Source: Deltaproteobacteria bacterium (GTDB lineage Bacteria; Desulfobacterota; Dissulfuribacteria; Dissulfuribacterales; QOAL01). From it: DNA of 45,935 bases. This document shows positions 4,804 to 32,200 of this stretch, piece after piece (within the stretch, counting starts at the first letter, position 1; each line of letters opens with the position of its first letter). The stretch spans positions 1-45,935 of the forward strand of contig JALVJO010000011.1 in the NCBI GenBank assembly GCA_027028245.1, given 5' to 3'. Below the pieces are notes generated by a model. The model was not told the origin of the DNA. It searched no databases and saw only the letters and a program-made list of their open reading frames with translations. A program made the translations under genes and the position numbers.

Positions 4804-6747
4804 ATGAAGGGCTGGCAGGGAAAGATATTAGAGGTTGATCTTACTTCCGGAAAAGTGGAGTGGCAGCCGCTTGACAGGCTCACTGCCCAGAAGTTTCTGG
4901 GAGGCAGAGGGCTCAATTCTTATACTCTCATGAAAGACGTCGGGCCTGGTACCGATCCCCTGGGGCCTGACAATGTCCTGTGTATTGCGCCCGGTGTCCT
5001 TTCAGGGACCCCGCTTGCCATGTCAAGCCGAGTCGAAGTCAGCACCTTTTCTCCTTACAGCGGGATTCTGGGTGACGGCAGTGCCGGCGGCATGTTTCCC
5101 ACTTTTTTGAAGCTTGCAGGTGTGGACCAGATAGTGATCCGCGGCGCATCTTCCTCTCCGGTATACCTATGGATAGAGGACGGAAAGGCTGAGCTGAAGG
5201 ATGCTTCCTTTTTGTGGGGGAAAAACACCTGGGAGACAGTAGATGCCCTGAAGGAGGTTCACGGCAAAGATGTGAGAGTCGCCTGTATAGGCCAGGCAGG
5301 AGAAAACCTGGTTCGTTTTGCTTCCACCATGGTTGATAAGCACTCGTCGGCTGCCAGGGGGAGCGGGGCGGTATGGGGTGCAAAACGTCTTAAGGCCATA
5401 GCTGTCCGGGGCACTATGAAACCCGCCCTTTCAAGGCCGGAAGAATTCAAGCGCCTTTCGGATGCCGACAGGAAATTTTTCATAACAGATGACTTTCAGC
5501 ATAACATTGTGCGGAAATACGGGACACACATCGGGGTACTGAGCTGGCAGCCGGGGTTCCGCCACTACCAGCGCTATCTTGAGGAGAAGGATATCCCTAT
5601 CGAGCTTCTGCCGAATTCTTGGAAACGTTATGAATCCGGCCGGTATGCCTGCTTCGGATGTCCAGTTGCATGCAAGAACAGGTACGTGATTCCAGATGGC
5701 CCTTACACGGGTGAGGAAAATGCAGGCCTTGAATATGAATCCATACACTGCCTTGGCCTGAATGCCGGAGTCTCTGACCCCAAGGCCATAATGGTCCTTT
5801 CAAATCTGGCAGACAAGTACGGCATGGACGTTATAGCCCTGGGTAATACCGTGGCCCTTGCAAAGGACCTTTATTCCAGGGGCATCCTCTCCCGGGAAGA
5901 CACCGGCGGACTGAGTCTTGAGTGGGAGGACGGGGCTGCCGAAATAGAGCTGGTGCACCTTATTGCCCTTCGGGAGGGGTTCGGCAATGTTGCTGCAGAA
6001 GGGCTTTACAACATGGCAAAGATCATAGGCGGCCGTGCCCCTGATTTCTGCTGGCATGTTAAGGGGCTTTCACGTGGTGTCCATCCTCCCGGCATCATGG
6101 CCCTGGCCCATGCCACTTCAACCAGGGGAGCCGATCATCTAAGGGGCAGGACATGGGCCTATGGAGAGAATGACGGGGAGATATTTACGAGGCTCGTAAG
6201 CCAGGGGTATATCCCCGATGTTGAAACAGATGTGGTCAATTGTCTCACGGTATGCGAAAGGGTTACCACCGTGACCGATGCCCTTGGCAGGTGCAAGGGT
6301 GCTGTGACAAGCTGGGTTGCCGCTGTGCCCCTTGTTTGGAAGTATCCCCTGCTGGACGGTGTGGCCAGGCTTCTTTCAAGCGCAACAGGCATTTATTACA
6401 CAGAAGATGACGTCATGAGGGCAGGTGAACGCATCTACATAACAGAGCGTGCCTTCAACGTACGCCACGGCATAAGTGCCGTACACGATTCTTTACCCCA
6501 GAAGCCTGAAGTGCGGGATTCCGAGCAGGGAGAACATGAAAGAAGGCAGCACAGCCAGATGCTTCGGGAATATTACCGGGTGCACGGCTACAATGAAGAC
6601 AGCGGTATCCCCACCAGGGAAAAGCTGATGGAACTGGATCTGCCGGAGATTGCTGAAATCCTACATGAAACGAAACCTGCTGTTAGCTGGGATGGGCCGC
6701 CATTGTGGGAACTGGAAGCGTATCCCCACGGAGGCAGGAGGGCCTGA
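4804..6747 (+). CDS. aor: Tungsten-containing aldehyde:ferredoxin oxidoreductase
   Basis: 647 residues, the normal size for the AOR family. These cytoplasmic enzymes oxidise aldehydes to acids with ferredoxin, using a tungsten bis-pterin centre and one [4Fe-4S] cluster. The N-terminal domain has the family pterin-contact region (FLGGRGLNSY, 31-40). The cluster ligands are Cys283, Cys286 and Cys290 (CFGCPVAC) with the fourth, Cys497, in ALGRCKG. The start is fixed by AGGAGGTGAG just upstream. The gene stands alone: a long gap follows before the hydrogenase promoter. The exact substrate (aldehyde, formaldehyde, or the reverse acid reduction) cannot be told from sequence. moaC, a pterin-cofactor gene, lies elsewhere in the window. 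Confidence 0.93.
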   Translation: MKGWQGKILEVDLTSGKVEWQPLDRLTAQKFLGGRGLNSYTLMKDVGPGTDPLGPDNVLCIAPGVLSGTPLAMSSRVEVSTFSPYSGILGDGSAGGMFPTFLKLAGVDQIVIRGASSSPVYLWIEDGKAELKDASFLWGKNTWETVDALKEVHGKDVRVACIGQAGENLVRFASTMVDKHSSAARGSGAVWGAKRLKAIAVRGTMKPALSRPEEFKRLSDADRKFFITDDFQHNIVRKYGTHIGVLSWQPGFRHYQRYLEEKDIPIELLPNSWKRYESGRYACFGCPVACKNRYVIPDGPYTGEENAGLEYESIHCLGLNAGVSDPKAIMVLSNLADKYGMDVIALGNTVALAKDLYSRGILSREDTGGLSLEWEDGAAEIELVHLIALREGFGNVAAEGLYNMAKIIGGRAPDFCWHVKGLSRGVHPPGIMALAHATSTRGADHLRGRTWAYGENDGEIFTRLVSQGYIPDVETDVVNCLTVCERVTTVTDALGRCKGAVTSWVAAVPLVWKYPLLDGVARLLSSATGIYYTEDDVMRAGERIYITERAFNVRHGISAVHDSLPQKPEVRDSEQGEHERRQHSQMLREYYRVHGYNEDSGIPTREKLMELDLPEIAEILHETKPAVSWDGPPLWELEAYPHGGRRA

Positions 6748-7258: not shown

Positions 7259-8365
7259 ATGTCGAGTAAAGATCACATAAATGATTTTGCAGGAGGCGGA
7301 GTTAGCCGGAGGACCTTCCTGAAAGGCTGTGCCCTGGCTGCAGCTGCCCTGGGGCTTTCCCCGGATGTGGTCCCGAAGATGGTGGAAGCCGCCATGTCTC
7401 CCAAGAGACCGCCTGTGGTCTGGCTGCATTTCCAGGAGTGCACCGGCTGTTCCGAGGCCCTGCTGAGGGCTGCAAGGCCCGACATCGCTACCCTCATCCT
7501 GGACCTCATTTCCCTGGATTACCACGAGACCCTCATGGCAGCTGCCGGCAAGCAGGCAGAAGAAAATCTGCATGATGCCATTACCAAGAATGCCGGCAAA
7601 TTCATTTGCGTAGTGGAAGGAGGCATCCCAACCAAGGATGGAGGTATTTACTGTAAGATTGGCGGCAGGACAGCTGTTGAAATACTCGACGAAGTGGCAT
7701 CCAAGGCCAAGACCGTCATTGCCATAGGCACCTGCGGGGCCTTTGGCGGTGTCCAGGCTGCAAAACCCAATCCTACGGGGGCGGTGGGCGTTCAGGACCT
7801 GGTAAAGGGAAAACCGGTGATAAACATCCCCGGCTGCCCCCCGAATCCGGAAAATTTTCTTGCCACCGTGGTCCAGATACTGACATACGGCCGTCCTCCT
7901 GAACTCGACGAGCTCAGCAGGCCCAAGTTCGCCTATGGCAGAAAGATACACGATCACTGTGAACGAAGGCCGCACTTCGACGAGGGGCGATTCGTGGAGC
8001 GCTTTGGCGACCCGGGGCATAAAAAGGGTTACTGCCTTTACAAGGTAGGATGCAAGGGGCCGGTTACCTATTCCAACTGTTCAGTGGAGCGTTTCTGCAA
8101 CATCGGCGCATGGCCTGTCGGGGCTGGTCACGGCTGTATTGGCTGTACGGAACCGCATTTTTGGGACACCATGATGCCGATTTACAAACACCTGCCGGGA
8201 ATCTACATACCCGTTGGAGGTGGGATAAGAGAGCAGGCCGAGGAAATTGGAAAGGTGGCTGTGGGAGGAGCTGCTGCCGTGATAGCTGCGCATGCAGCGG
8301 TGGGAATAGGCAAAAAGCTTTTTTCCATAAAGTGTACCAGCAAAGAGAAAGAGGAAGAAAAATAG
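7259..8365 (+). CDS. hyaA: [NiFe] hydrogenase small subunit (Tat-exported)
   Basis: 368 residues. It carries the iron-sulfur relay that takes electrons from the active site of the large subunit. A Tat signal with SRRTFLKGC (16-24) and a hydrophobic stretch precedes the mature domain, so the pair is folded and exported. The proximal cluster motif CTGC is at 61-64, with GTCGAFGG and GCPPNPE further on; the distal and medial cluster ligands are in VGCKGPVTYSNC and GHGCIGC. A C-terminal Ala/Val-rich hydrophobic helix followed by a charged tail is the membrane anchor seen in cytochrome b-linked group 1 uptake hydrogenases. The start follows GAGGAGG. First gene of the operon; 9 bp separate it from hyaB. 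Confidence 0.96.
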   Translation: MSSKDHINDFAGGGVSRRTFLKGCALAAAALGLSPDVVPKMVEAAMSPKRPPVVWLHFQECTGCSEALLRAARPDIATLILDLISLDYHETLMAAAGKQAEENLHDAITKNAGKFICVVEGGIPTKDGGIYCKIGGRTAVEILDEVASKAKTVIAIGTCGAFGGVQAAKPNPTGAVGVQDLVKGKPVINIPGCPPNPENFLATVVQILTYGRPPELDELSRPKFAYGRKIHDHCERRPHFDEGRFVERFGDPGHKKGYCLYKVGCKGPVTYSNCSVERFCNIGAWPVGAGHGCIGCTEPHFWDTMMPIYKHLPGIYIPVGGGIREQAEEIGKVAVGGAAAVIAAHAAVGIGKKLFSIKCTSKEKEEEK

Positions 8366-8374
8366 GAGGATAAA

Positions 8375-10084
8375 ATGGCTACCAAGATCACTGTTGATCC
8401 GATTACCAGGATAGAAGGCCATTTGAGAATAGACGTGGAAGTTGACGGCGGCAGTGTCACCAATGCATGGGCATCTCCCCAGATGTGGCGGGGCATAGAG
8501 GTAATTTTAAAGGGCAGGGATCCAAGGGATGCATGGGCTTTCTGCCAAAGGATATGCGGGGTTTGTACTACGGTTCACGCCATTGCCTCGGTGAGGGCGG
8601 TGGAAAATGCCCTTGGCATAGGGGTGCCCCTAAATGCCCAGTATGTCAGGAACATCATCCTGTGCGCCCATGCCATGCACGATCATATTGTTCATTTTTA
8701 TCAACTTTCGGCCCTTGACTGGGTTGACGTGGTCTCTGCCCTGGATGCAGACCCTGCCAAGACCGCAAGGCTTGCACAATCCCTTTCCGATTGGCCTGAC
8801 AATGGAAAGAGCCGATTCGAGGCTGTGAAGGCGAAGCTCAAGGCCCTGGTGGAAAGCGGCCAGCTCGGCCCCTTCAAGAACGGGTACTGGGGGCATCCTG
8901 CAATGAAGCTGCCGCCTGAAGCAAATCTCATGGCAGTTTCCCACTATCTTCAGGCCCTGGATTATCAGAGAAAGGCCGATCAGGTCGCAGCCATATTCGG
9001 AGGCAAGAACCCCCACATACAAACCGTAATAGTCGGCGGGGTTGCCCTTGCCATAAACCTCGACAATCTGGCCACATTGAACATGGACAAACTCATGCAG
9101 GCCAGGCAGCTCCTACAAGAGGTGAAACAGTTTGTGCAGCAGGTCTATCTTTCGGATGTTATTGCCATAGGTGCGCTCTACAAGGACTGGCTGGCATATG
9201 GAAGGGGAGTAACAAATTATCTTGCAGTGCCGGACCTGCCCCTCGATTCCAAGGGCACGGCCTTTGACCTGCCAGGGGGGACCATATTCGGCGCGGATCT
9301 CAAGGATTTTACTCCTATAACTTCCTTTAATGACAAGTATTTCCGAGACAACGTGGCCGAGTCCATAGTGCATTCCTGGTACAAGGGCGACTGGACCAGA
9401 CATCCCTGGAATGAGGAGACCGTGCCAGATTATACGGATTTCAATGAAAATGGAAAATATTCCTGGGCCAAGGCGCCCCGTTTCAACGGTCAGCCTATGC
9501 AGGTAGGGCCCCTTGCCCCGGTTCTGGTTGGCTACGTAAGCGGACACAAGGCAACCAGGCAGTGGGTGGATTTTGCCCTTAAAAAGGTTTCTGAAATCGC
9601 AGGTGTGAAGATAGGAGTGGAAGCCCTGCAGTCCACGCCGGGCAGGCATCTTGCCCGTGCCATCAGGGCCGCCATGATCGCAGATTACGGCCTTAAGCAC
9701 CTGGAACTGCTCACTAAGAATATCGGCATGGGAGATCTCGAGATCTATCCCTATAAGAACCCCCCGGAGTTCCCGGCAGGAGAGATAAGGGGGTTTGGTT
9801 TCCATGAAGCGCCAAGGGGTTCACTGTCCCACTGGGTAGTCATCCAGGACGGGAGGATAAAGAACTACCAGTGCGTGGTGCCTTCCACCTGGAACGTGAG
9901 CCCCAGGTGCTCAAAGGATTTCATGGGGCCCTATGAGTCTTCTCTCATGGGCAATCCCATTGCGCAGCCTGAAAGGCCCCTGGAGGTCCTGAGGACTGTT
10001 CATTCCTTTGACCCCTGCATAGCCTGTGCGGTTCATCTGCTGGATCCAAACAGGCGGGAATTCTCAAGGATAAAGGTGCTCTGA
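8375..10084 (+). CDS. hyaB: [NiFe] hydrogenase large subunit
   Basis: 569 residues, catalytic subunit holding the Ni-Fe(CN)2CO centre. N-terminal ligands are in RICGVC (C61, C64) and C-terminal ligands in DPCIACAVH (C548, C551). The 15-residue tail after His554 is the extension removed by the maturation protease once nickel is in place; the matching protease HyaD is encoded further along. The second ligand position is encoded by an ordinary Cys codon, so this is not a NiFeSe enzyme. It has no signal of its own and is exported with HyaA. A perfect AGGAGG precedes the ATG. Confidence 0.97.
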   Translation: MATKITVDPITRIEGHLRIDVEVDGGSVTNAWASPQMWRGIEVILKGRDPRDAWAFCQRICGVCTTVHAIASVRAVENALGIGVPLNAQYVRNIILCAHAMHDHIVHFYQLSALDWVDVVSALDADPAKTARLAQSLSDWPDNGKSRFEAVKAKLKALVESGQLGPFKNGYWGHPAMKLPPEANLMAVSHYLQALDYQRKADQVAAIFGGKNPHIQTVIVGGVALAINLDNLATLNMDKLMQARQLLQEVKQFVQQVYLSDVIAIGALYKDWLAYGRGVTNYLAVPDLPLDSKGTAFDLPGGTIFGADLKDFTPITSFNDKYFRDNVAESIVHSWYKGDWTRHPWNEETVPDYTDFNENGKYSWAKAPRFNGQPMQVGPLAPVLVGYVSGHKATRQWVDFALKKVSEIAGVKIGVEALQSTPGRHLARAIRAAMIADYGLKHLELLTKNIGMGDLEIYPYKNPPEFPAGEIRGFGFHEAPRGSLSHWVVIQDGRIKNYQCVVPSTWNVSPRCSKDFMGPYESSLMGNPIAQPERPLEVLRTVHSFDPCIACAVHLLDPNRREFSRIKVL

Positions 10085-10099
10085 CAAGGAGGGCATGTC

Positions 10100-10807
10100 A
10101 TGATAAGGAGAGAACCGAGACTTTATTACAGGGTCTTCGTTTGGAGCGGAACATTGAGGCTGTTTCACTGGACCCTGGCCTTCAGTACATTCATCTTGAT
10201 ACTTACCGGCATCTATATCCATTATCCGCCTATAACCACCAAGTGGGCAGAGTTCAAACCGCAGTACATCATGGCCACCTTGAGATATTGGCACTTTTGT
10301 GCCGGCTATTTTTTTCTCTGCGCCTTGGCTGTGAGATTTTATTTGTTCTTTGCAGGAAACCAGTATGAGCGCCCCATGGATTTTCTGCCCATAAACAGGA
10401 GAAATCTCAGATCACTTCGGCACAACATCAGATTCTATCTATATCTTACTGATGAACATGAGTGCCGCATGGGCCACACCGTCCTGGCAGGCACCATATA
10501 TTTCATCCTTTTCATCTGCGGGGTGGTTATGGGCCTTACCGGGCTTTACCTGCTTTATCCCGAGGCGCCCACCATAGCCAGGCTTGGTCATGAACTGTTC
10601 GGAACGCCCCAGCAGGCCCGCCTTATTCATTATCTTCTCAATTGGTTCTTCATCTTTTTCATTATGGTACATCTTTACATCGCTATCTGGAACGACTTCA
10701 AGGCGCCAGATGCCATCATCTCGGGTGCTTTTTCCGGCTCCAAGATGATGCCGGCTGACCTGGAGTGCCCGGTGGAAGAGCTGAAAAAGATACCCTTTGA
10801 AAAATAG
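10100..10807 (+). CDS. hyaC: Hydrogenase b-type cytochrome, membrane subunit
   Basis: 235 residues with about four strongly hydrophobic segments (near 20-40, 65-85, 130-155 and 180-200). It resembles the diheme cytochrome b that anchors the hydrogenase and passes electrons to the quinone pool. Candidate haem His residues lie in the hydrophobic parts (FHWTLA near 22, RYWHFCAGY near 63, HYLLNWFF and MVHLYIA near the end). AAGGAGG precedes the start. It lies 15 bp after hyaB in the usual small-large-cytochrome order of respiratory uptake hydrogenases. Confidence 0.93.
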   Translation: MIRREPRLYYRVFVWSGTLRLFHWTLAFSTFILILTGIYIHYPPITTKWAEFKPQYIMATLRYWHFCAGYFFLCALAVRFYLFFAGNQYERPMDFLPINRRNLRSLRHNIRFYLYLTDEHECRMGHTVLAGTIYFILFICGVVMGLTGLYLLYPEAPTIARLGHELFGTPQQARLIHYLLNWFFIFFIMVHLYIAIWNDFKAPDAIISGAFSGSKMMPADLECPVEELKKIPFEK

Positions 10808-10856: not shown

Positions 10857-10943
10857 CGATGTATCTGCTGTCAGCGGCTTAGTTTGACAGAAGGCTGCAG
10901 GCACTCGGGACATTTTCTTGCCTGCAGCCTGTCCAGAAACAAG

Positions 10944-13289
10944 ATGAGTTCTGACGCTGAAAAAAATACAAGTCCAATTGCACGGATAAAGGGGATCATG
11001 AGACAGTTCTTGCCAGCCATCGAGTGGATGGCAAAATACAAAACCGACACGCTCCGTCATGACCTGATAGGTGGACTCACCGTGGCCTTGGTCTTGATTC
11101 CCCAGTCCATGGCCTACGCCCAGCTTGCGGGCCTCCCTCCCTATTACGGCCTGTACGCATCCTTCTTGCCGCCCATTGTGGCGGCCCTATTCGGCTCAAG
11201 CAGGCAGCTTGCCACAGGACCTGTTGCAGTGGTCTCCATGATGACCGCGGCGGCCCTGGAACCCATGGCTGTTGCCGGAAGTCAGGGCTACATAGCCTAT
11301 GCAGTTCTTCTTGCGCTTCTCGTTGGTGGCATACAGTTTTCTCTGGGGATTTTAAGGTTGGGCGTGGTGGTAAATCTCCTTTCCCATCCAGTGCTTCTCG
11401 GATTTACCAATGCGGCTTCCATCGTGATCGCCACCAGCCAGCTTGGAAAATTTCTCGGAGTTCCGGTGGAAAAGGCCCCGCACCATTTTGAAACAGTATG
11501 GCGTACCATCCAGCAGGCCCTTGATTACGTTTATTGGCCCACAATTGCCTTGGGGGCCGGGGCGCTGGGTGGAATGCTGTTTCTCAGATGGCTCAATCCC
11601 AGGCTGCCGTATGTACTAATTGCAGTGGCCGTAACCACCCTCATTTCCTGGAAATGTAACTATAGCCAGGACAGGCTGGTAAACGCGAAACAGATCGTTT
11701 GCCCGGAGCTTCCCAGGCTCGTAAGGGAATTTAACAGGCAGCTTTCCACCATCGAGGCCTTTAACCAGAGCCTTTCCGTTCTGAAACCAGAGATACAAAA
11801 AATTAAACAGGGGAAAAGTCAACCTTGCAGCAGGTGCCATCCCAGCAAGGTGCTAACACCCTTGTCCCTGATTGAAGAAAACCAGGGAAAAAACCGCCGG
11901 GAGTCCCAGGTTCCCATATCCAGTATCGGTCCCAGGCAGATCCTCTCTCTCCATCTCATGGCAGGGGTTATAGACGAGTTCATTGCGGATGCAAAAAGAA
12001 AGCTGGTAAACCTGCGGGCAAAGCTCATGGAGTACGAATTTGTGGAAGTGACAGAAAGAGACGGCTCTGTCCGGTACTACAAAAGATACAAAGTTCCTTA
12101 CGGGGGCCGGACAGACTGGCATGTTTGGAGAATAAGGGTTGGGAATACGCCCCTTTCCCTTAAGCGCCTGGTGCTCTCGGGAGGAGGTGACGTTCTGGGG
12201 CACGTGCCAAAGGGCCTGCCTGGTTTTTCCATGCCCTACTGGGACCTGGACGTGGCCAGAAAACTGTTGTTGTCTGCCTTTGTTATCTCCCTTGTTGGCT
12301 TCATGGAGGCGATATCCATCGCCAAGGTCATGGCGGCAAGATCGGGCCAGAGGCTCGACCCCAACCAGGAACTGGTGGGCCAGGGACTTGCCAACATGAC
12401 GGGCTCCTTTTTCCAGAGTTATGCCGTCTCTGGCTCCTTCTCTCGCTCTGCGGTCAACTTCCAGGCAGGTGCAAAAACGGGCATGTCAAACATATTTGCC
12501 TCTGTGGTGGTGGTCATAGTCATGCTGTTTCTCACCCCGCTTCTTTATTACCTGCCCCAAAGCGTTCTGGCTGCAGTGATAATGATGGCTGTACTGGGCC
12601 TCATAAACGTAAAGGGCGTAAAACATATCTTCAGGGTATCTATCTCTGACGGAATTATCTGCATCATGACCTTTGTTACCACCCTTGCCTTTGCACCCCA
12701 CCTGGACAAGGGTGTCATGCTGGGGGTAATCCTCAGCCTGGGCGTATTCTTTTATCGCCTCATGCGCCCTTCCATTGCGGTTCTATCGTTGTGGAAAGAC
12801 GGCCACTTCAGAAATGCCAGGAAATTCAGCCTGGAAACGTGCAGGTACCTGGCGATCATACGATTCGACGGACCTTTTTTCTTTGCAAATATTGGGTACC
12901 TTGAAGACGAGGTACTGAGAATTGTAAGGGAAATGCCGGAGCTCAAGGCCATAATCTTTAAATGTAATGGCATAAACATCATAGACGCATCGGGAGAGGA
13001 GGCCCTGGAGCTTCTGGTGGAGAGGCTGAGGGCAGCTGGTTACCAGGTCTATTTCAGCGGTCTCAAGGAGCAGATACTGGAGGTGCTTGAACGTTCATCT
13101 CTCTACATGAGGATAGGGCCAGAAAACATATTTCCAACGGTTTCCAAGGCGGTTGAAAAGATCTGGCCCGATATCCATGAAAAGGTTGAGGAAGAAATGT
13201 GTCCGCTTCGCCGTGTTATCCAGAAAAATGTGATCGACATGGAGGAACAGGATTCCAATGACCAGGAAGAATGGAACAGGCCCATGTGA
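10944..13289 (+). CDS. SulP anion transporter with large insert carrying CxxCH
   Basis: 781 residues from the ATG at 10944; a TTG at 10884 and an ATG at 10998 (behind AAAGGGG) are alternatives, and none has an ideal ribosome site. The parts of a SulP/SLC26 transporter are clear: the N-terminal signature around PQSMAYAQLAGLPPYYGLYA (51-70), the second half starting LVGFMEAISIAK with SGQRLDPNQELVGQGLAN, and a C-terminal STAS domain (about 640-760). Between them, residues about 238-410 form a hydrophilic insert some 150 residues longer than the usual link, with a c-type haem-binding signature CSRCH at 295-299. By SLC26 topology this link should face the periplasm, where cytochrome c is matured. 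Its 3' end overlaps hypF by 19 bp, so it belongs to the hydrogenase operon. The substrate is unknown. Confidence 0.88.
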   Translation: MSSDAEKNTSPIARIKGIMRQFLPAIEWMAKYKTDTLRHDLIGGLTVALVLIPQSMAYAQLAGLPPYYGLYASFLPPIVAALFGSSRQLATGPVAVVSMMTAAALEPMAVAGSQGYIAYAVLLALLVGGIQFSLGILRLGVVVNLLSHPVLLGFTNAASIVIATSQLGKFLGVPVEKAPHHFETVWRTIQQALDYVYWPTIALGAGALGGMLFLRWLNPRLPYVLIAVAVTTLISWKCNYSQDRLVNAKQIVCPELPRLVREFNRQLSTIEAFNQSLSVLKPEIQKIKQGKSQPCSRCHPSKVLTPLSLIEENQGKNRRESQVPISSIGPRQILSLHLMAGVIDEFIADAKRKLVNLRAKLMEYEFVEVTERDGSVRYYKRYKVPYGGRTDWHVWRIRVGNTPLSLKRLVLSGGGDVLGHVPKGLPGFSMPYWDLDVARKLLLSAFVISLVGFMEAISIAKVMAARSGQRLDPNQELVGQGLANMTGSFFQSYAVSGSFSRSAVNFQAGAKTGMSNIFASVVVVIVMLFLTPLLYYLPQSVLAAVIMMAVLGLINVKGVKHIFRVSISDGIICIMTFVTTLAFAPHLDKGVMLGVILSLGVFFYRLMRPSIAVLSLWKDGHFRNARKFSLETCRYLAIIRFDGPFFFANIGYLEDEVLRIVREMPELKAIIFKCNGINIIDASGEEALELLVERLRAAGYQVYFSGLKEQILEVLERSSLYMRIGPENIFPTVSKAVEKIWPDIHEKVEEEMCPLRRVIQKNVIDMEEQDSNDQEEWNRPM

Positions 13290-15610
13290 ATATGGAAAGT
13301 ATGGATGGCCATGGCGTTGAAATTAGAATAAGGGGAATCATCCAGGGCGTCGGATTCAGGCCCTTCGTCTACCGCTTGGCGACCGGGCTTGGACTAAAGG
13401 GCGAGGTCTCTAACAATGAGAAGGGGGTTGTGGTCAGACTAAAGGCCAAAGGCCCCACTATTGAGACCTTTTCCAGCCTTCTTACCTCAAGGTGCCCACC
13501 CCTTGCCCGAATAGACTCTGTTGAGATTAGGCCTGCCATCCTGGGAGATTTCAGGGACTTTAGAATCGTAAAGAGCAGCAAGGGCGGCAAGGTTGCCACT
13601 GAGGTTTCCCCTGACATTGCCACCTGCAAGGACTGTCTGAATGAAATACTTGACCCTGCGGACAGGCGCCACGGATATGCATTTACGAACTGTACCAACT
13701 GCGGCCCAAGATACACCATAATAAAGGCTCTTCCCTACGACAGGCCCCTTACCTCCATGAAGTCCTTTGTCATGTGTAAAAGGTGCCAGGAGGAATACGA
13801 AGACCCCTTGGACAGGCGATTGCACGCGCAGCCAAACGCATGCCCGAAATGTGGCCCAAGGCCCTTTTACATGGATCCGTCAGGGGAAAAGGATCTCGAC
13901 AAGCCCCTTGAAAGGGCCGCGGATCTCATAAAAAGAGACGGGATCGTTGCCATCAAAGGCCTTGGCGGCTTCCACCTTGCCTGCAGCGCCTTTTCAGATG
14001 TTGCCATCTCAGTACTTAGAAAGAGGAAGAGGCGTCCCTTTAAACCCCTTGCCATAATGATTCAGGACATTAAGACGGCAAAAGGGCTTGCCGTAGTAGA
14101 CGAAAACGCAAGGGGCTTTCTCACCTCCTTCACAGCCCCCATCGTGCTTTTGAAAAGGAAAGAAAAGAGCGGCGTTTCAAGGCTTGTTGCACCGGGCATT
14201 GGGGATATTGGCGTAATGCTTCCCTATACCCCGCTTCATCACCTCCTTCTAAGGATAGAGGGCTGCCCGGAGGCCCTTGTGATGACAAGCGGGAACCCCA
14301 AGGACGAACCCCTTTGCACGTCAAACGACGAGGCCTTCTCACGCCTTTCAGGCTTTGTGGACGGATTTTTGATGCACAACAGGGACATTTTCACAGGCGT
14401 TGATGATTCCGTTTTAAGGACCTTTTCTGGAGGCCACTATTTCATCAGAAGATCAAGGGGATATGCCCCTGCCCCCTTGCCCTTTCCTGTAAAGGCCACT
14501 GGCATCATGGCAGCAGGAGCTGAGCTCAAAAACACTTTTTGCCTCATAAAAGAAGGCCGGGCCTATCTCAGCCAGCACATAGGAAACCTTGTAACCAGGG
14601 CTACCCTTGACTTTTACAGGGAAAACATAAGGCATCTTTCAGGCCTCCTGGAAGTGGAACAGAGGGTGGTGGCCTGCGACCTTCACCCAGACTATATAAG
14701 CACAAGGTACGCGCTAGAGACGTCTCTTCCAGTTATAAGGGTCCAGCACCACTTTGCCCATGCCGCCTCCGTAATGGCAGAACACCATCTAAAGGGGCCA
14801 GTGGTTGCCATCTGCCTTGACGGGACAGGCCTTGGAACAGACAGGACCATCTGGGGCGGCGAGGTGCTAATCTGTACCAAAACAGGTTTTGAAAGAAGGG
14901 GAAGGCTAAGGCCCTTCAGGCTTCCAGGAGGGGACGCATGTGCAAAGAGCCCGTGGAGAGCTGCCCTGTCAACCCTGCTTAAGTCCTACGGGGGGGAAGC
15001 CACCTTTCCGGCACATCTAAAAGCCCATAAAGGGGAAGCCGTCTTTGACTTTGTTAGGGAGATGATAATCAGGAAGGTAAACAGCCCCTTGAGCTCTAGC
15101 CTTGGAAGGCTCTTCGATGCAGCCGCGGCCCTTTCTGGCATTTGCCTTGAAAACAGCTATGAGGCACAGGCGGCCATGGAGCTTGAGGCCCTATGCGAAG
15201 ACATTCTCGGAGATACATCCATAAACAGGACAGACGCCTTTGACCACTTTCTCAATGATGAAAGGTTCATTAGGGAAAAAGAGGGACTCCTTGAGCTCAA
15301 CTGGGCGCCCCTTTGGCAAAATATGTTACATGAGGCAGCAAAAAGGCCGGGGGATTTTTCGCTTTTTTTTCACTGCATGGTGCTAGCGGGTTTTTCAAGG
15401 ATTTCTGAAGCCATCTGCAAAAAAGAAGGAATAGACCAGGTAGTACTAAGCGGAGGCTGCATGCAAAACAGGGTCCTGGTCCAGGGTTTTCTGGATCACT
15501 TCGAAAAAAGGGGCATCAAGTGCTATATTAACAGGAATGTGCCCTCAAATGACGGTGGAATCAGCCTGGGACAGGCCTTCGTGGCGGCGAACATCATGCA
15601 AAAGGGTTAA
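13271..15610 (+). CDS. hypF: Carbamoyltransferase HypF, hydrogenase cyanide-ligand synthesis
   Basis: 779 residues, full length. HypF makes the carbamoyl group that HypE turns into the cyanide ligands of the active-site iron. Parts in order: acylphosphatase domain (about 15-100, with GIIQGVGFRPFVYR); two Cys4 zinc-finger blocks (CKDC...CTNC and CKRC...CPKC, about 117-200); a YrdC-like domain (about 210-390); and a Kae1-like carbamoyltransferase domain (about 400-779) with the metal-binding HHFAH motif. In-frame ATGs also occur at 13292 and 13301; the first overlaps the SulP gene, in keeping with translational coupling. Confidence 0.95.
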   Translation: MEQAHVNMESMDGHGVEIRIRGIIQGVGFRPFVYRLATGLGLKGEVSNNEKGVVVRLKAKGPTIETFSSLLTSRCPPLARIDSVEIRPAILGDFRDFRIVKSSKGGKVATEVSPDIATCKDCLNEILDPADRRHGYAFTNCTNCGPRYTIIKALPYDRPLTSMKSFVMCKRCQEEYEDPLDRRLHAQPNACPKCGPRPFYMDPSGEKDLDKPLERAADLIKRDGIVAIKGLGGFHLACSAFSDVAISVLRKRKRRPFKPLAIMIQDIKTAKGLAVVDENARGFLTSFTAPIVLLKRKEKSGVSRLVAPGIGDIGVMLPYTPLHHLLLRIEGCPEALVMTSGNPKDEPLCTSNDEAFSRLSGFVDGFLMHNRDIFTGVDDSVLRTFSGGHYFIRRSRGYAPAPLPFPVKATGIMAAGAELKNTFCLIKEGRAYLSQHIGNLVTRATLDFYRENIRHLSGLLEVEQRVVACDLHPDYISTRYALETSLPVIRVQHHFAHAASVMAEHHLKGPVVAICLDGTGLGTDRTIWGGEVLICTKTGFERRGRLRPFRLPGGDACAKSPWRAALSTLLKSYGGEATFPAHLKAHKGEAVFDFVREMIIRKVNSPLSSSLGRLFDAAAALSGICLENSYEAQAAMELEALCEDILGDTSINRTDAFDHFLNDERFIREKEGLLELNWAPLWQNMLHEAAKRPGDFSLFFHCMVLAGFSRISEAICKKEGIDQVVLSGGCMQNRVLVQGFLDHFEKRGIKCYINRNVPSNDGGISLGQAFVAANIMQKG

Positions 15611-15647: not shown

Positions 15648-15920
15648 ATGTGTCTGGCAATTCCCATGGAAGTAAAGGATATAACAGGAACACCCGGTGA
15701 CTTTCTCGACCCGCCACTGGCTCAGGTTGAGGCCCAGGGCACAAGAGCGCAGGTGCGCCTTGACATAGTTGACCGCATGCCTGAGGTTGGCGATTTTGTA
15801 ATAGTCCATGCAGGCTTTGCAATACATACCCTTTCAAGGGATGAGGCCGAAAAGAGCCTTGAGCTTTTTAAAGACATGGCCAAAGCGGCGAAGGGGTCCG
15901 GGGATGAAAAACCAGCCTGA
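15648..15920 (+). CDS. hypC: Hydrogenase assembly chaperone HypC/HybG
   Basis: 90 residues. The protein begins with the family hallmark MCLAIPMEV, whose Cys2 binds the iron-cyanide intermediate. The frame extends further upstream, but the MCLAIP start is certain from the family and has AGGAGA nearby. HypC shuttles the Fe(CN)2CO unit between HypD and the large subunit precursor. It lies 37 bp after hypF and its end overlaps hypD by 17 bp. Confidence 0.95.
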   Translation: MCLAIPMEVKDITGTPGDFLDPPLAQVEAQGTRAQVRLDIVDRMPEVGDFVIVHAGFAIHTLSRDEAEKSLELFKDMAKAAKGSGDEKPA

Positions 15921-17001
15921 ATCCAAAAAAAGTGCCGAAAAGATTCTCCATATTACCAGTGCCATAGGTGAGCTTGCCACAAGGCCCAAGAGGTTCATGG
16001 AGGTCTGCGGGACCCATACCATGTCCATATTCAGACACGGTCTGCGCTCCCTTCTACCAAAGACCCTGGAGCTAGTCTCAGGTCCAGGCTGCCCGGTTTG
16101 CGTGACAAGCCAGGAAGACATCGACAGGATGATTGCATTTTCTTCAAAGGAAGAAGTCATTGTTGCAACCTTTGGAGACCTTGTCCGTGTTCCAGGCTCA
16201 CGCACATCCCTTGCCCAGGCGCGCGCGGCTGGGGCCAGGGTGAAAATCGTCTATTCGCCTGCAAGCGCCCTGGAAATTGCCAGGCAAAATCCTGACAAAC
16301 AGGTGGTTTTTTTGGGGGTTGGCTTTGAAACAACCGCTCCCACAGTTGCGGCAACCATCCTGGAGGCAGATGCCAGAGACATCCAGAACTTCTCGGTCTT
16401 CTCCACTCACAAGGTAATGCCTCCCGCCCTTGACGCCCTTTTCAGTGGCCAGGAACCTGGAATAGACGGACTCTTATGCCCAGGGCACGTAAGCGCCATA
16501 ATTGGGGCAAGGGCCTATGAAAAAATCTGCCAGGAATTCGATATCCCATGCGTGGTAGCTGGCTTTGAGCCAGAAGATATCCTGAGAGGCGTATTTCACC
16601 TTGTACGCCAGAAGGTTAAGGGGGAGGCAAGGGTGGAAAATGTCTACGAAAGGGTTGTCACATGGGAAGGGAACCAAAACGCATATGCTCTTATGCAAAG
16701 GGTTTTTGAGAAAAGGGATGCCAGGTGGCGGGGTCTTGGGACAATAAAGGAAAGCGGCCTTGCCTTACGGGATGACTTTTCCCATCTTGATGCGGAAAGA
16801 CGCTTTGATATCACAGTACCTGAAGCCAGAGAAAAAAAGGGATGTCTTTGTGGAGAGATAATCAGGGCCAGGGCCCTGCCCCTTGACTGTTCACTTTTTG
16901 GCAAGGTGTGTACGCCAACGAGCCCAGTTGGACCCTGCATGGTGTCAAGCGAAGGCACATGTTCTGCCTATTACAGGTATGGAGGCCACGGGCGTGGATA
17001 A
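15904..17001 (+). CDS. hypD: Hydrogenase maturation protein HypD
   Basis: 365 residues from the ATG at 15904. HypD is a [4Fe-4S] scaffold on which the cyanide and CO ligands are put on iron. Family motifs are present: EVCGTHTM with the iron-binding Cys near 38, SGPGCPVCVT near 65, and the C-terminal cluster Cys residues including CLCGEI and GPCMVSSEGTC. The open frame runs back to 15808, but that stretch overlaps hypC and is not conserved, so I use the later start. Its end overlaps hypE. Confidence 0.95.
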   Translation: MKNQPESKKSAEKILHITSAIGELATRPKRFMEVCGTHTMSIFRHGLRSLLPKTLELVSGPGCPVCVTSQEDIDRMIAFSSKEEVIVATFGDLVRVPGSRTSLAQARAAGARVKIVYSPASALEIARQNPDKQVVFLGVGFETTAPTVAATILEADARDIQNFSVFSTHKVMPPALDALFSGQEPGIDGLLCPGHVSAIIGARAYEKICQEFDIPCVVAGFEPEDILRGVFHLVRQKVKGEARVENVYERVVTWEGNQNAYALMQRVFEKRDARWRGLGTIKESGLALRDDFSHLDAERRFDITVPEAREKKGCLCGEIIRARALPLDCSLFGKVCTPTSPVGPCMVSSEGTCSAYYRYGGHGRG

Positions 17002-18010
17002 GATTCTGCTCGATCACGGAAGCGGAGGGCTTGCAACCAAAAGGCTCATAGAGGAAGTATTCCTCAAACACCTGGAAAACCCGGTGCTCTCCCGCATGGA
17101 AGACAGCGCTGTCCTTGATCTTCCGCCAGGCAGGGTCGCCTTTACAACAGACAGCTTTGTCATTGATCCTCCCTTTTTCCCAGGGGGCGATATAGGTTCC
17201 CTCTCCGTTCACGGAACCGTCAACGACCTTTCCATGCAGGGGGCAAGGCCTTTGTTTCTGAGCCTTGGCCTCATCCTGGAAGAGGGGCTTGAGATAGACG
17301 TTATTGAAAAAATTTCAAGGTCCATCTCAAGGGCCTCTAGGGAGGCGGGCGTAATGATTGCTGCTGCCGATACAAAGGTCGTGGGAAGGGGGCAGGCGGA
17401 CAAACTCTTCATAAACACCTCTGGAATTGGGGTGATCCCGCAAAACGTGGTGCTTGGCATAAACAGGGCACGGCCTGGAGACAGGGTTATTGTTTCAGGT
17501 TGCCTTGGAGATCACGGGGCGGCCGTCTTGCTTTCACGCTCAGGCCTTCCCTTTGACGCTGAGATAAAAAGCGATTGCGCCTCTTTGAACGGACTTGTAG
17601 AGGCCATTTTCCAAGCGGCACCTGGATCAATCCGCCTTCTAAGGGACCCGACCAGGGGTGGGCTTGCAACAGTGATTAACGAGATAGCAGAGGCCTCTAA
17701 TGTGAACATGGAAATCTGGGAGGAGCGCATTCCTGTAAGAAGCGAGGTGTCCGGGGTTTGTGAGCTTCTCGGCCTTGACCCCTTGTATCTTGCCAACGAG
17801 GGAAAGTGCGTTGTTGTGGTAAGGCCGGATGCGGCAGAAAAGGTTCTCGAGGCTATGAAGGGGCACAGGCTTGGCAGGGAAGCTGCCATTATAGGCGAGG
17901 TCAGGGAAAAGGGGGCAAAGGAGAGGCCCCAGGTACTTCTTAGAACCAGGGTAGGGGGGGTAAGGATGGTTCCAGTGCTGACGGGAGAGCCCCTTCCGAG
18001 GATATGTTAA
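16979..18010 (+). CDS. hypE: Carbamoyl-dehydratase HypE
   Basis: 343 residues from the ATG at 16979; the frame is open to 16883 but the earlier part overlaps hypD. HypE dehydrates the carbamoyl group taken from HypF to a thiocyanate on its C-terminal Cys, which is present here in the conserved ending PRIC. The N-terminal LLDHGSGGLATKRLI block and the AIR-synthase-like ATP-binding fold (DSFVIDPPFFPGGDIG and DPTRGGLA) are typical. It overlaps hypD by 23 bp and shares TAATG with the next gene. Confidence 0.95.
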   Translation: MEATGVDKILLDHGSGGLATKRLIEEVFLKHLENPVLSRMEDSAVLDLPPGRVAFTTDSFVIDPPFFPGGDIGSLSVHGTVNDLSMQGARPLFLSLGLILEEGLEIDVIEKISRSISRASREAGVMIAAADTKVVGRGQADKLFINTSGIGVIPQNVVLGINRARPGDRVIVSGCLGDHGAAVLLSRSGLPFDAEIKSDCASLNGLVEAIFQAAPGSIRLLRDPTRGGLATVINEIAEASNVNMEIWEERIPVRSEVSGVCELLGLDPLYLANEGKCVVVVRPDAAEKVLEAMKGHRLGREAAIIGEVREKGAKERPQVLLRTRVGGVRMVPVLTGEPLPRIC

Positions 18011-18507
18011 TGGTAGATAATGAGAAAATGGCAGTGGTCCTGGGGATTGGAAACCTCCTCATGGGGGACGAAGGCTTTGGAGTCCACGTTCTTCGCCATC
18101 TTGAAAGAAACTTTGTCTTTCCGGAAAATGTCAGGCTTGTGGACTGCGGGACCGCAGGCATCTACATGGCCCCCTTCTTTGAAGATGCGGACATTGCCAT
18201 TGTAATGGATGCGGCCCTGATTGATGGCTCAGAGCCAGGGCAAATCTTGAGGCTCAATCACCAGGAGGTAACGGCAAGTGATATCCAGTCTGCCCTAAGC
18301 CCCCACCAGATAGGGGTTTTGGAGATCCTTGAAATATGCAGGCTAAGGGACACGCTCCCTTCCCAGGTGGAATTTTTCCTTGTCATACCCCAAAGGGTTG
18401 AGCCTACGTTGGAGCTTTCTCAGATCCTTGAGGGTAAGGTAGAGGAGATGGCAAGGCTTGTGATGGATTACCTGAGGGCTGAAGGTTTTAAAGTGAAAAA
18501 TGCATGA
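18010..18507 (+). CDS. hyaD: Hydrogenase maturation protease (M52 family)
   Basis: 165 residues from the ATG that overlaps the hypE stop as TAATG; a start two codons upstream or at 18028 is also possible. This protease trims the C-terminal tail of the large subunit after nickel insertion. The GIGNLLMGDEGFG block supplies the nickel-sensing Glu, MDAALIDG the Asp and LSPHQIG the His, as in HybD/HyaD. Its substrate should be HyaB, whose tail after DPCIACAVH is intact. Confidence 0.92.
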   Translation: MVDNEKMAVVLGIGNLLMGDEGFGVHVLRHLERNFVFPENVRLVDCGTAGIYMAPFFEDADIAIVMDAALIDGSEPGQILRLNHQEVTASDIQSALSPHQIGVLEILEICRLRDTLPSQVEFFLVIPQRVEPTLELSQILEGKVEEMARLVMDYLRAEGFKVKNA

Positions 18508-18892
18508 ACTTTCCCTTGTTCAAGGCCTTTTTTCCCAGGTCAAAGAGGCGGCTTCCCGACACCATGCCCGGAAGGTGACAAGGGTTGTGGTGAAAATAGG
18601 CCCCTATTCCGGGGTGGTGATGGATTCATTCACCTTTGCCTTTGAGGTCCTGAAGGAAGATGAGGAGCTTTTACGCCATGCGCACCTTGAAATCATAAGG
18701 CCAGGGGCAAGGCTATGTTGCAGCCTTTGCGGAAGGGAGGTGGATGCTGAAAGTGGGCATCCGGACTTTAAGGATGAAACGCTTCAAAGTCAGCTTTTCT
18801 CCAAGGGGAAAACATGCCCCCATTGCGGCAAGGGAAACCTTTATCCTTCAGGAGGAGACGAGATACTTTTAATGCAAATAGAAATGGAGTAG
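18500..18892 (+). CDS. hypA: Hydrogenase nickel insertion protein HypA
   Basis: 130 residues. The N-terminal MHE is the nickel-binding motif and is intact, which also fixes the start. The zinc site is formed by CSLC and CPHC in the C-terminal half. A 20-odd-residue stretch between the two zinc halves is somewhat longer than in many HypA proteins. It works with HypB to load nickel into the large subunit. It overlaps the protease gene by 8 bp. Confidence 0.94.
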   Translation: MHELSLVQGLFSQVKEAASRHHARKVTRVVVKIGPYSGVVMDSFTFAFEVLKEDEELLRHAHLEIIRPGARLCCSLCGREVDAESGHPDFKDETLQSQLFSKGKTCPHCGKGNLYPSGGDEILLMQIEME

Positions 18893-18894
18893 CC

Positions 18895-19605
18895 ATGTGT
18901 GATACCTGCGGATGCCAGACAACAAAACACAGTCACCAGGACAGGAAACTTCTTGAGATCAACAAGAGCCTTCTTGAGGCAAACGATTCAGTTGCCAGAA
19001 AAAACAGAAAGCACTTTGGTGAGATCGGGGCAAGGGCCATCAACCTCATAAGCAGCCCCGGGGCAGGGAAAACCACCCTTCTTGAAAAGACAGCGGAGCT
19101 CCTTTCAGGTGAGTTCGATTTTGCCGTTATAGAAGGAGACATAGAAACAGAGCGCGACGCCCAGCGCATAAGGGCAAAGGGAATTCCTGCGGTCCAAATA
19201 ACCACGGGAGGTGCGTGCCACTTGGATGCATCCCTTGTTCATAAGGGACTTCACGAACTTCAGCACACGGTCCCGGAGTCCGGTTTGGACCTGGTCTTTA
19301 TCGAAAACGTTGGAAACCTCGTCTGCCCAGCAGCCTTTGACCTTGGCGAACACAAACGAGTTGTCATGGTCTCTGTTCCAGAAGGCTCTGACAAACCTGC
19401 CAAATACCCGAGGGCCTTCATGGGCTCTGATCTCTTAATCATTTCAAAGATGGACCTGCTGCCCTATTTTGATTTTTCCCTGGAAGAGGCCAGCCGGGAG
19501 GCCAGGAGGCTCAATCCGGATATCAAGATCATGGCTCTTTCGTCTGTCACAGGCCAGGGAATGGAACAATGGAGAGATTACCTGGCAGGCCTCACCAAGA
19601 TCTAA
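18895..19605 (+). CDS. hypB: Hydrogenase nickel incorporation GTPase HypB
   Basis: 236 residues from the ATG of MCDTCGCQ. The CxxCGC N-terminal motif binds nickel tightly, as in E. coli HypB. GTPase motifs: P-loop SSPGAGKTTLL, EGDIETERD, and the metal-binding GGACHLDA block; ENVGNLVCP contains the switch Cys. There is no His-rich nickel-storage tail. A frame open to 18814 overlaps hypA and is not used. Last gene of the hydrogenase cluster. Confidence 0.95.
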   Translation: MCDTCGCQTTKHSHQDRKLLEINKSLLEANDSVARKNRKHFGEIGARAINLISSPGAGKTTLLEKTAELLSGEFDFAVIEGDIETERDAQRIRAKGIPAVQITTGGACHLDASLVHKGLHELQHTVPESGLDLVFIENVGNLVCPAAFDLGEHKRVVMVSVPEGSDKPAKYPRAFMGSDLLIISKMDLLPYFDFSLEEASREARRLNPDIKIMALSSVTGQGMEQWRDYLAGLTKI

Positions 19606-29289: not shown

Positions 29290-32200
29290 ATGGAGCCCCA
29301 GCAACCGAGGTCCTCGGTCTTTCGATTTTCAGATCCTCGCCAGCAGCGAATCTACGAGGAATTGAAGGAGGTTGTTGGCCCGGGTCCTGCTGCGTTCTTC
29401 CACGATGCCTGTTGGCTTATGACCTATCCTGAGACACTTCACACCACAGCGCACTTGGTGGCTCATCTCCTTCGTGAACTCGAGAGTACAATTCGTGCCG
29501 TATTTAAACCAGTTGCCGAAGGTGTATCGCAGTGGACAAATGGCTCAGGATCACAAAAGGATCAAATCAAGTCGATTTTAGCTGCACTCAATATTGATGA
29601 GAAAGCATCTGAAGCAAAGGCATGGTTTGAGCTAGCGGACCGGCTCCACGGTCTAGCGCATCGGCGAGGACTCGATGCGCCCAGGCAGATGGTGGAAATA
29701 GAGCCTTTATGGAATCAGATACAAAACCTGCTTGATATCATTCTGGTGGCTCTACGCGAGCACTTCATTACTTGGATCGGGATTCTGGACGAACTTTTGA
29801 CAAAGCCGCAGCCCATCAAAACAGATCTTAAACAGCTCGCCCAGGAGATCCCAAACAACCAAGTAACGCGGCAATACTTTTTTGAGCGTCTCCAGTTTCC
29901 CGAGTGGCTGGAGCCATTGCGAGCAAAAGGCTTTTTCCAGAACCCACTATGGCCTGAGGCACGTTACCTGGCACGGATGGCCAAGCACAAGTCAAATCTC
30001 GTAGCCGAAATCATCCAGGAGATGGAGGACACCGAAAATGACTCAGTGATCTCGGACCTCGTAGATGCTTTGCTTGCTATGCCGCAGGAAGTTTCTACGA
30101 CGCTCGTGGAGGAGGTCGCACGCTGGGCAAAGTCTCCTTATCTGCTATTGCCGGAGAAACTGGGCCAATTGCTTGCTCATTGGGCGAAGGGTGGTGGTAT
30201 CGAAGAGGCGTTGCGCGTTTCGCGTGTGTTACTTGACGTTCTGCCAGATGACCGCCGTATGGAGTTCGGACCCGACGAGGTATATCGCCTTCCTCCAGAA
30301 CCTCGAGCACGCTTTGACGTCTGGCATTATGAGCAGATTCTTAAGGAGCATTACCCAGACTTTGTGCGGGAGGCCGGGTTGATTGCCCTGGAATTGCTTT
30401 GCGATCTGCTGGAGAAGGCCATAACCTATTCCAGGCACCATGACGATGATGACCATGGGCCCTTAGATCATTCCTATATCTGGCGACCTGCGATTGAGGA
30501 GCATTCCCAGAACCTTGGTGACACAATCAAGGACTCTTTAGTCTCTGCGGTTCGCGATGCAGCAGAGCTTCTGGTCCGCTCCAAACGAGCCACTGTTGAG
30601 GAGGTCGTGAACGCCCTCGAACGCAGGCGCTGGAAGGTCTTCCAGCGCTTCGCACTCCATATTCTCAGAATATTTTCGAGCCGGGCAGGGGAACTAGCGG
30701 CCTTAAGGCTCACTGACCGATCGCTGTTCGAGGATGTGTGTCTTCGGCACGAGTATGTGTTGCTACTGAGGGAGCATTTTTCACGTCTCACCCTGGAAGA
30801 CCAGAGTAGAATCCTCGGATGGGTTGAAGACGGACCTGAAGTGAATAAATGGAAGCAATGGAGAGAAAGTGAGACGGGCTCTCTTCCCTCGGATGAAGAT
30901 GCGGCCTGCTACCAGGAGAACTGGCAGCGGGACTGGCTGGCCAGGATCGGGTCTGAGAACCTGCCCGGAGAATGGCAGAAACGTTATCGAGAACTCGTTG
31001 AAAAACACGGCGAACCAGAGCATCCAGAGTTTTCGTCGTACACGGAAGGCGGTTGGGCGGGACCCACGAGCCCCAAGACAGCCGATGAGCTCAAGGCAAT
31101 GTCAGTCACGGAGATCGTGGAATTTCTCAAGAGGTGGAAGCCTCTGGAGAACGTTTTCGGGGAACCTTCTCCAGAGGGCCTTGGCCGTTTGCTCTCGTCT
31201 GTTGTCGCCGATGATCCTAGACGTTTTGCCATTGAAGCAAAAGTATTTCAGGGGCTGGATCCGACTTACGTCCGTGCTGTCATGTCCGGCCTCAGAGAGG
31301 CTGTGAAACAAGAAAGGGCTTTTGATTGGGGGCCGGTTTTGGATCTCTGCGACTGGGTACTATTATCACAGCCGCGGGAGATTGAGGGCCGGAAAGTACA
31401 AGAAATGGTCGCCGATCAGGACTGGGGCTGGACGCGCAAGGCGATTGCCGATCTCCTTTCAATTGGGTTTGAAAACCGCCGGAGTTGCATCCCCATCGGC
31501 TTCCGTCATAAGGTTTGGAACATTTTGAAACCGCTGACCGATGATCCCGATCCGACGCCAGAACAAGAACAACGCTACGGCGGCTCCGACATGGACACTG
31601 CCACCCTGTCAATCAACACTACCCGTGGCCAGGCCATGCACGCGGTTGTCCTATATGCATTGTGGGTGAGACGTCATCTGGAAAAAAAGCTGAATCCGGA
31701 AGTTCGGCTTCAAAAGGGATTTCACCAGATGCCTGAGGTGCGTGAGGTATTAGAAATGCACTTGGATCCGGCACGAGAACCCTCATTAGCTATCCGTACG
31801 GTGTATGGGAGGTGGTTCCCATGGCTCGCTTTTCTCGACCCAGATTGGACACATACCCATACAGCAAGAATCTTTCCACAAGACGTAGAAAGCGAGGCTT
31901 TCTTTGAAGCCTCCTGGAGCACCTATCTTAGGTTTTGCATAGCCTATGATGATGTATGGGATATGCTTAAACCATATTACCGCTTGGCTGCGGATCGGCT
32001 GGCCATCCAGGGTGACGACGAATGGCAGCTCGCTTACCCTAATAAAAAACTGGCCGAGCATCTCATGGTTTTTTACTGGCGCGGGAAAATTTCGTTAGAC
32101 GACTCAATTTTTTCAACCTTTTGGCAAAACGCGGCTGATGGCCTTCGAACTCATGCCATCTCATTCATTGGACGCTCTCTGAAGCAGACAAATGGTGATA

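Follow-up and report, generated by a model that had tools for sequence, protein, structure and literature searches.

The SulP-type transporter gene found in the window (the whole stretch of DNA that was analysed, 45,935 nucleotides) encodes an otherwise ordinary SulP transporter that bears a conserved CxxCH motif on an extracytoplasmic loop. The attachment of haem to the transporter is considered highly probable. The gene and its parts were mapped as follows.

10944 to 13289, plus strand: SulP/SLC26 anion transporter with STAS domain, 781 residues from the ATG (Pfam, TIGR00815)
11103 and 11115: Q54 and Y58, which go with the S500-R501 sulfate site (alignment)
11655 to 12182, plus strand: TM7-TM8 loop, predicted to be extracytoplasmic, residues 238-413 (aligned with the structures of prestin and SULTR4;1; topology count)
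11709 to 11807, plus strand: predicted hairpin helix 1, residues 256-288 (AlphaFold2, insert alone)
11826 to 11840, plus strand: CxxCH haem c attachment motif, C295-S-R-C-H299 (25/25 haem-type, 0/46 sister SulPs)
11931 to 12032, plus strand: predicted hairpin helix 2, residues 330-363 (AlphaFold2, insert alone)
11949 to 11966, plus strand: LHLMAG, residues 336-341, with H337 as candidate distal haem ligand and invariant G341
12039 to 12182, plus strand: predicted beta strands at the hairpin base, residues 366-413 (model)
12306 to 12308, plus strand: E455, equivalent of the H+-coupling Glu347 of AtSULTR4;1 (alignment, PMC8298490; conserved in 71/71)
12441 to 12446, plus strand: S500-R501, equivalents of the sulfate-site Ser392-Arg393 (alignment)
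12852 to 13151, plus strand: cytosolic STAS domain (Pfam)

The gene product scored 372.8 bits with Pfam Sulfate_transp PF00916 (cut-off 23.2; E 2e-111), matched in two stretches, and 58.3 bits with STAS PF01740 (cut-off 22.6; E 7e-16), and it was above the cut-off of TIGR00815 sulP (457.5 versus 380.5 bits). A TTG at 10884 is a possible alternative start and would give a protein of 801 residues. This gene was the sole SulP of its kind found in its own genome.

The known SLC26 fold has 14 TM segments in a 7+7 repeat with the N-terminus and the STAS domain in the cytosol, and the TM7-TM8 linker joins the two repeats (PMC8755724, PMC8298490, PMC11362169). The window protein is predicted to have the same 7+7 fold, as both halves align to solved members and the TM count agrees. 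When compared with prestin (7v73), the query residues 14-241 and 414-660 aligned to 56-310 and 314-559, respectively, and thus 172 query residues stand against three in prestin (310 to 314) and residues 242-413 are without counterpart in solved SLC26 proteins. Prestin (SLC26A5) and SLC26A9 share with the window protein the 14 TM inverted repeat, the cytosolic STAS domain and the TM7-TM8 loop at the same point, but they have neither the insert nor a haem. Seven hydrophobic N-terminal segments precede the insert, and because the chain lies outside after an odd number of crossings, the insert is predicted from homology to be extracytoplasmic. The periplasmic location that the sequence-only reading had proposed was thus supported, with homology placing the segment outside and not in the cytoplasm, after TM7 in the TM7-TM8 loop of the 7+7 fold. 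Over 19 residues the hydrophobicity of the insert reached at most 0.76, too little for any part of it to span the membrane.

The same reading had counted about 150 extra residues in this loop, which holds against a typical SulP but not against the nearest sister SulPs, where the loop is already 135-148 residues long. The loop of the haem type measures 166-181 residues, of which the haem part contributes about 25-40. The 46 sister proteins, with open frames mostly of about 710-870 aa, are probably the group Ci SulPs of dissimilatory sulfate reducers, as judged from length and host groups; group Ci was described as putative sulfate transporters some 710 aa in length that have gained roughly 90 aa when compared with Rv1739c (PMC5840216). 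That insertion was read as an extra transmembrane helix in PMC5840216; in the haem type the loop is longer and contains CxxCH and LHxxAG. An added transmembrane helix was also considered for the insert of the window protein and was rejected, as its hydrophobicity is too low and the model is a coiled coil. The terms heme, cytochrome and hydrogenase had no match in the text of PMC5840216.

The CSRCH motif falls exactly at C295-H299 when counted from the ATG, as first reported. A CxxCH arises by composition shuffle of the sequence in 0.1-0.2% of cases; stronger evidence comes from its retention in 25/25 haem-type SulPs while synonymous changes accumulate. These 25 proteins represent four families, spread over three classes of the phylum, the distribution being that of samples within the phylum and of a genome-wide scan with patterns fitted to the close group, and CxxCH was found in 0/46 of the sister SulPs with a shorter loop. 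The conservation among homologues on which the earlier proposal depended was therefore found within the haem type. In its own family (group f1), the insert was present in 11/19 genomes and was CxRCH in every one of them; in a second class (group f72) a profile search recovered the insert with CLRCH, and a third class (groups f25 and f105) added ten more with CSSCH, CSTCH, CGSCH, CIDCH, CTGCH and CGRCH. The histidine of LHxxAG (H337), located 28-42 residues after CxxCH, and G341 were each found in 25/25, and the sister rows have mostly E/Q/K and S/R at these positions. Thus, over all rows, the haem type never varies at C295, C298, H337 or G341, residues that most of the sisters lack. M339 was rejected as a general distal ligand, being L or K in 6/25. 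The WRI...GN...GGG motifs of the base-strand region (residues 366-413) are common to the haem type and the sister SulPs.

The insert was found to be under purifying selection within the close group (dN/dS 0.13-0.28), where silent changes have occurred in the Cys and His codons. Across long branches the loop identity is 24-38%, with the haem site strictly kept and its surroundings varying freely. In trees built without the insert, which are unrooted, all the haem rows fell on one side of one branch (support 99/95 in the 48-row tree; SH-aLRT 96 in the 71-row tree). Since the alignment of the sisters runs along the helices of the haem type and their tip is shorter, the haem site may have been added to the tip of a pre-existing arm or lost in the sisters. 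No SulP relative was found on the viral contigs, and none of the plasmids carried one. One genome of family f1 (G015; locus L035) has the second-class version of the haem SulP, known from L098 and L106-L108, together with the same upstream Usp gene as in L098, L106 and L108, which suggests horizontal transfer in this case.

The presence of a cytochrome c assembly function was searched by PF01578, which was found in 12/12 carrier genomes searched, all drawn from the first two clades; the genome of the window has two copies. None of the cytochrome c domain models reached its cut-off with the insert, and a NapC/NirT match in the window SulP was sub-threshold (E 0.04). The invariant set of C295, C298, H299 and H337 would also fit a zinc-binding CCHH site, or a hook of the Rad50 type that joins two hairpins, with no haem. 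The Rad50 zinc hook has its CxxC where two antiparallel helices of a coiled coil meet, as predicted for the window protein, and it was among the structural look-alikes with Z of 8.6, a middling value typical of any coiled coil; it differs in being intracellular and unrelated in sequence, and the window protein has a His directly after the second Cys and a tip loop of about 40 residues. This zinc reading is judged very unlikely: a His directly after the second Cys in 25/25 is the haem c signature, the middle residues of CxxCH vary freely (SR, GR, LR, SS, ST, GS, ID, TG), and the site is extracytoplasmic in genomes with cytochrome c assembly genes, where CxxCH is a substrate for haem attachment. 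The invariance of the cysteines and their periplasmic location could serve a haem-free thiol-disulfide switch that senses the periplasmic redox state, but H299 and H337 are as invariant as the cysteines and neither is needed for such a switch, which makes it a highly improbable explanation.

The structure of the loop was predicted with AlphaFold2 on the insert alone using ten sequences. The model consists of a strand at 243-246, a helix at 256-288, the CxxCH stretch, a helix at 330-363 and four strands up to 413, and it suggests an antiparallel coiled-coil hairpin of about 5 nm (33-34 residues) with CxxCH at the tip. The confidence outside the haem stretch was mostly 80-90 and lower near the tip; helix 1 had a pLDDT of 84-91 over its first half, which fell to about 50-70 nearer the tip, and helix 2 about 57-89 with the lowest values at the end of the haem loop. 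A full-length AlphaFold2 model of the window SulP, also from 10 sequences, reached a pLDDT of 41 and was unusable. Modelling thus gave a hairpin of fair confidence, but the haem loop was of low confidence and the full-length model too poor to inform on topology. A profile search found CxxCH-bearing relatives in other classes. Fold and PDB searches with the insert gave no credible relative: the fold search returned generic coiled coils only, and a comparison of the insert profile with PDB sequences a single chance match.

The closest solved relative of the window protein is AtSULTR4;1 (7lhv; E 3e-93), a plant H+/sulfate symporter. The five residues compared from its sulfate and proton site, Q112, Y116, E347, S392 and R393, correspond to Q54, Y58, E455, S500 and R501, which are kept in 25/25 of the haem type; AtSULTR4;1 has the same five H+/sulfate residues and differs in its short TM7-TM8 linker without a haem loop. 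Among the mammalian members, only SLC26A11 has the proton-coupling Glu (PMC8298490). The genome of the window also contains dsrA, which fits the expected sulfate or sulfur metabolism. Sulfate is the likely substrate, and import the likely direction. No transport assay was found for any member. In the STAS domain, C674 (12963-12965) was Cys in all 23 of the haem-type rows that reach the position and in 3/46 sister SulPs, where it is mostly Ala or Ser; lying in the cytosol, it might be a second redox-sensitive or regulatory site.

One carrier (G560) is the cultured Desulfolithobacter dissulfuricans GF1, whose SulP GF1_18110 falls in the same haem-type branch (locus L148), adjoins HynABC and is listed by the authors as a SulP transporter (PMC9751629). 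The gene order of L148 matches that of GF1, with HynC-HynA-HynB (GF1_18080 to 18100) followed by the SulP GF1_18110, GF1_18120 and mvh/hdr from GF1_18140. In the proteomics of GF1, GF1_18110 was detected only in H2-dependent sulfate reduction and not in thiosulfate disproportionation, of which sulfate is a product (PMC9751629). Its restriction to growth on H2 and sulfate favours sulfate import during H2-dependent respiration. A text search of PMC9751629 gave no mention of a c-type cytochrome linked to GF1_18110. GF1_18120, a small hypothetical protein, ranked first in abundance among the proteins specific to H2-dependent sulfate reduction (PMC9751629). In D. dissulfuricans it corresponds by position to a small conserved protein with GACGYVGH...DGTCPxCGxVH and no Pfam family, which occurs in the same hydrogenase/SulP clusters at L148:11089-11385 (minus strand), L150:2746-3024 (minus strand) and L155:6233-6529 (plus strand).

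The placement of the SulP gene inside a respiratory hydrogenase operon was confirmed in the window, where cytB precedes it and hypF follows it in the operon of a Tat-exported NiFe hydrogenase.

7259 to 8365, plus strand: NiFe hydrogenase small subunit HynB with Tat signal (TIGR00391)
8375 to 10084, plus strand: NiFe hydrogenase large subunit HynA
10100 to 10807, plus strand: hydrogenase b-type cytochrome subunit, cytB (TIGR02125, over cut-off)
13271 to 15610, plus strand: HypF, overlapping the end of the SulP gene
15648 to 19605, plus strand: HypC, HypD, HypE, maturation protease, HypA and HypB (order conserved in relatives)

The SulP was located between cytB and hypF in eight other f1 contigs, where visible. 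At five loci (L132, L133, L136, L139 and L140) SulP is absent and cytB runs directly to hypF, and the SulP gene was therefore probably added to the operon. Hydrogenase genes are found in most genomes of the order, many of them without any SulP, and since the same operon occurs in many relatives without SulP, the transporter is not needed for the hydrogenase. The hydrogenase link was nevertheless real and wider than could be seen from one stretch of DNA: hydrogenase or hyp genes occurred within 8 kb of 16/25 haem-type genes and 0/46 sister genes, a difference that the Fisher p of 6e-10 overstates, since the rows are related sequences and the linkage label needs only at least 4 changes on the tree. 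A hydrogenase was not adjacent in 9/25 haem-type genes, some of whose contigs end early. In the third class, the haem SulP adjoins Hdr/Mvh together with HynABC in L148, Hdr/Mvh in L150, L152 and L155, a Hyb-like set with Fer4 and NrfD subunits in L154 and hypA/hypB alone in L151 and L156, and a cytochrome P460 adjoins two other haem SulPs. In the second class, a five-CxxCH cytochrome adjoins 2/4 haem SulPs, and a tandem Usp protein is encoded upstream where the upstream gene is readable.

The recurrence of redox proteins beside the haem SulP in all three lineages (HynABC, multihaem cytochrome and cytochrome P460) raises the possibility that the haem is real but has no part in transport control, and that it docks or exchanges electrons with periplasmic carriers such as the hydrogenase, the multihaem cytochrome or P460 in a physical complex, with the transporter as a membrane anchor. 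The modelled hairpin would bring the haem level with redox partners in the periplasm. However, the partner genes vary among carriers, and in L150, L152 and L155 the neighbouring hydrogenase is the cytosolic Mvh/Hdr, the type named "cytoplasmic" for L148 (PMC9751629), so that the haem cannot generally be in fixed contact with the hydrogenase; this role as mere anchor is regarded as unlikely. The linkage could otherwise reflect shared regulation of genes for H2-driven sulfate respiration only, with the hairpin stabilising the protein and having no specific role. The co-production of SulP and hydrogenase in D. dissulfuricans under H2 and sulfate agrees with that, as do the different hydrogenase types and gene orders in the linkage, but the haem site is strict over long branches (24-38% loop identity) while the loop around it is free to vary, and clades without a nearby hydrogenase also keep the site. 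Shared regulation by itself thus appears quite unlikely.

Taken as a whole, the best explanation, to which we give an even chance, is an H+/sulfate importer for H2-driven respiration whose periplasmic haem c would sense the redox state or a ligand, or offer a docking site. In the proposed mechanism, an H+-coupled SulP/SLC26 sulfate importer would serve H2-dependent sulfate respiration and bear a mono-haem c site where a helical hairpin ends in the periplasm. This hairpin would be inserted in the TM7-TM8 linker, which connects the gate domain of the elevator-type transporter to its core domain. The cytochrome c assembly system would attach the haem to C295/C298, and H299 and H337 would probably be its ligands. 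The haem may then signal how far the electron pool of the periplasm is reduced, or signal a small ligand, or it may be a docking point, and the hairpin would relay its state to the gate/core movement in such a way that sulfate import follows electron supply. The TM7-TM8 linker is known to join the gate (TM5-7) and the core (TM8-11), which move against each other in transport (PMC8298490, PMC11362169), and by analogy a rigid arm at this point could pass a change at the tip to the transporter. In the SLC23 relative UraA, the TM7-TM8 loop is an unstructured flexible tether and control was shown in the other two linkers (PMC11362169), which makes the analogy loose. An effect of the haem on transport is given an even chance, and the more specific reading, in which the haem on the gate-core linker opens and shuts H+/sulfate import according to the electron supply from H2 and makes this the first SLC26/SulP branch with covalent haem, is put forward only tentatively. 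A literature search for papers on SulP or SLC26 with haem gave no relevant match. The electron-linked transport suggested by the sequence-only reading is disfavoured in the strict sense, as the predicted hairpin would keep the haem and the transport site much too far apart for tunnelling and the hydrogenase of L150, L152 and L155 is cytosolic. The predicted distance would preclude direct electron transfer, and sensing or docking is therefore likelier than electron-driven transport.

To our knowledge, the regulation of sulfate uptake in sulfate reducers is hardly known. If the proposed mechanism is true, haem on the transporter would tie acceptor uptake to donor supply at the protein level, and sulfate uptake may be under redox control in hydrogenase-linked sulfate reducers. 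The SLC26 family includes prestin and human disease genes, and a natural sensor-like domain in the gate-core linker would show how the SLC26 fold comes under external control. Sulfate reduction starts with sulfate uptake, which influences how fast it proceeds, and assays exist for few of the SulP sulfate transporters of prokaryotes (PMC5840216).

Several minor observations were made on the gene neighbourhoods. Directly upstream of the hydrogenase operon, the window contains an aldehyde:ferredoxin oxidoreductase-type gene (4804-6747, plus strand), and further along it has an open frame of 1118 residues (29290-32646, plus strand) for which Pfam gave no match at E 0.001. At L106:5822-6571 (plus strand), near a haem SulP and a multihaem cytochrome, lies a gene for a beta-carbonic anhydrase whose start is hydrophobic and signal-like. 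The haem-less sister SulPs of L037 and L038 adjoin sensor-kinase-like and NtrC-type regulator genes. Furthermore, the genome G014 (L138 and L029) has two copies of this hydrogenase, and its SulP was located beside the copy less like that of the window (69% versus 91% for the small subunit).
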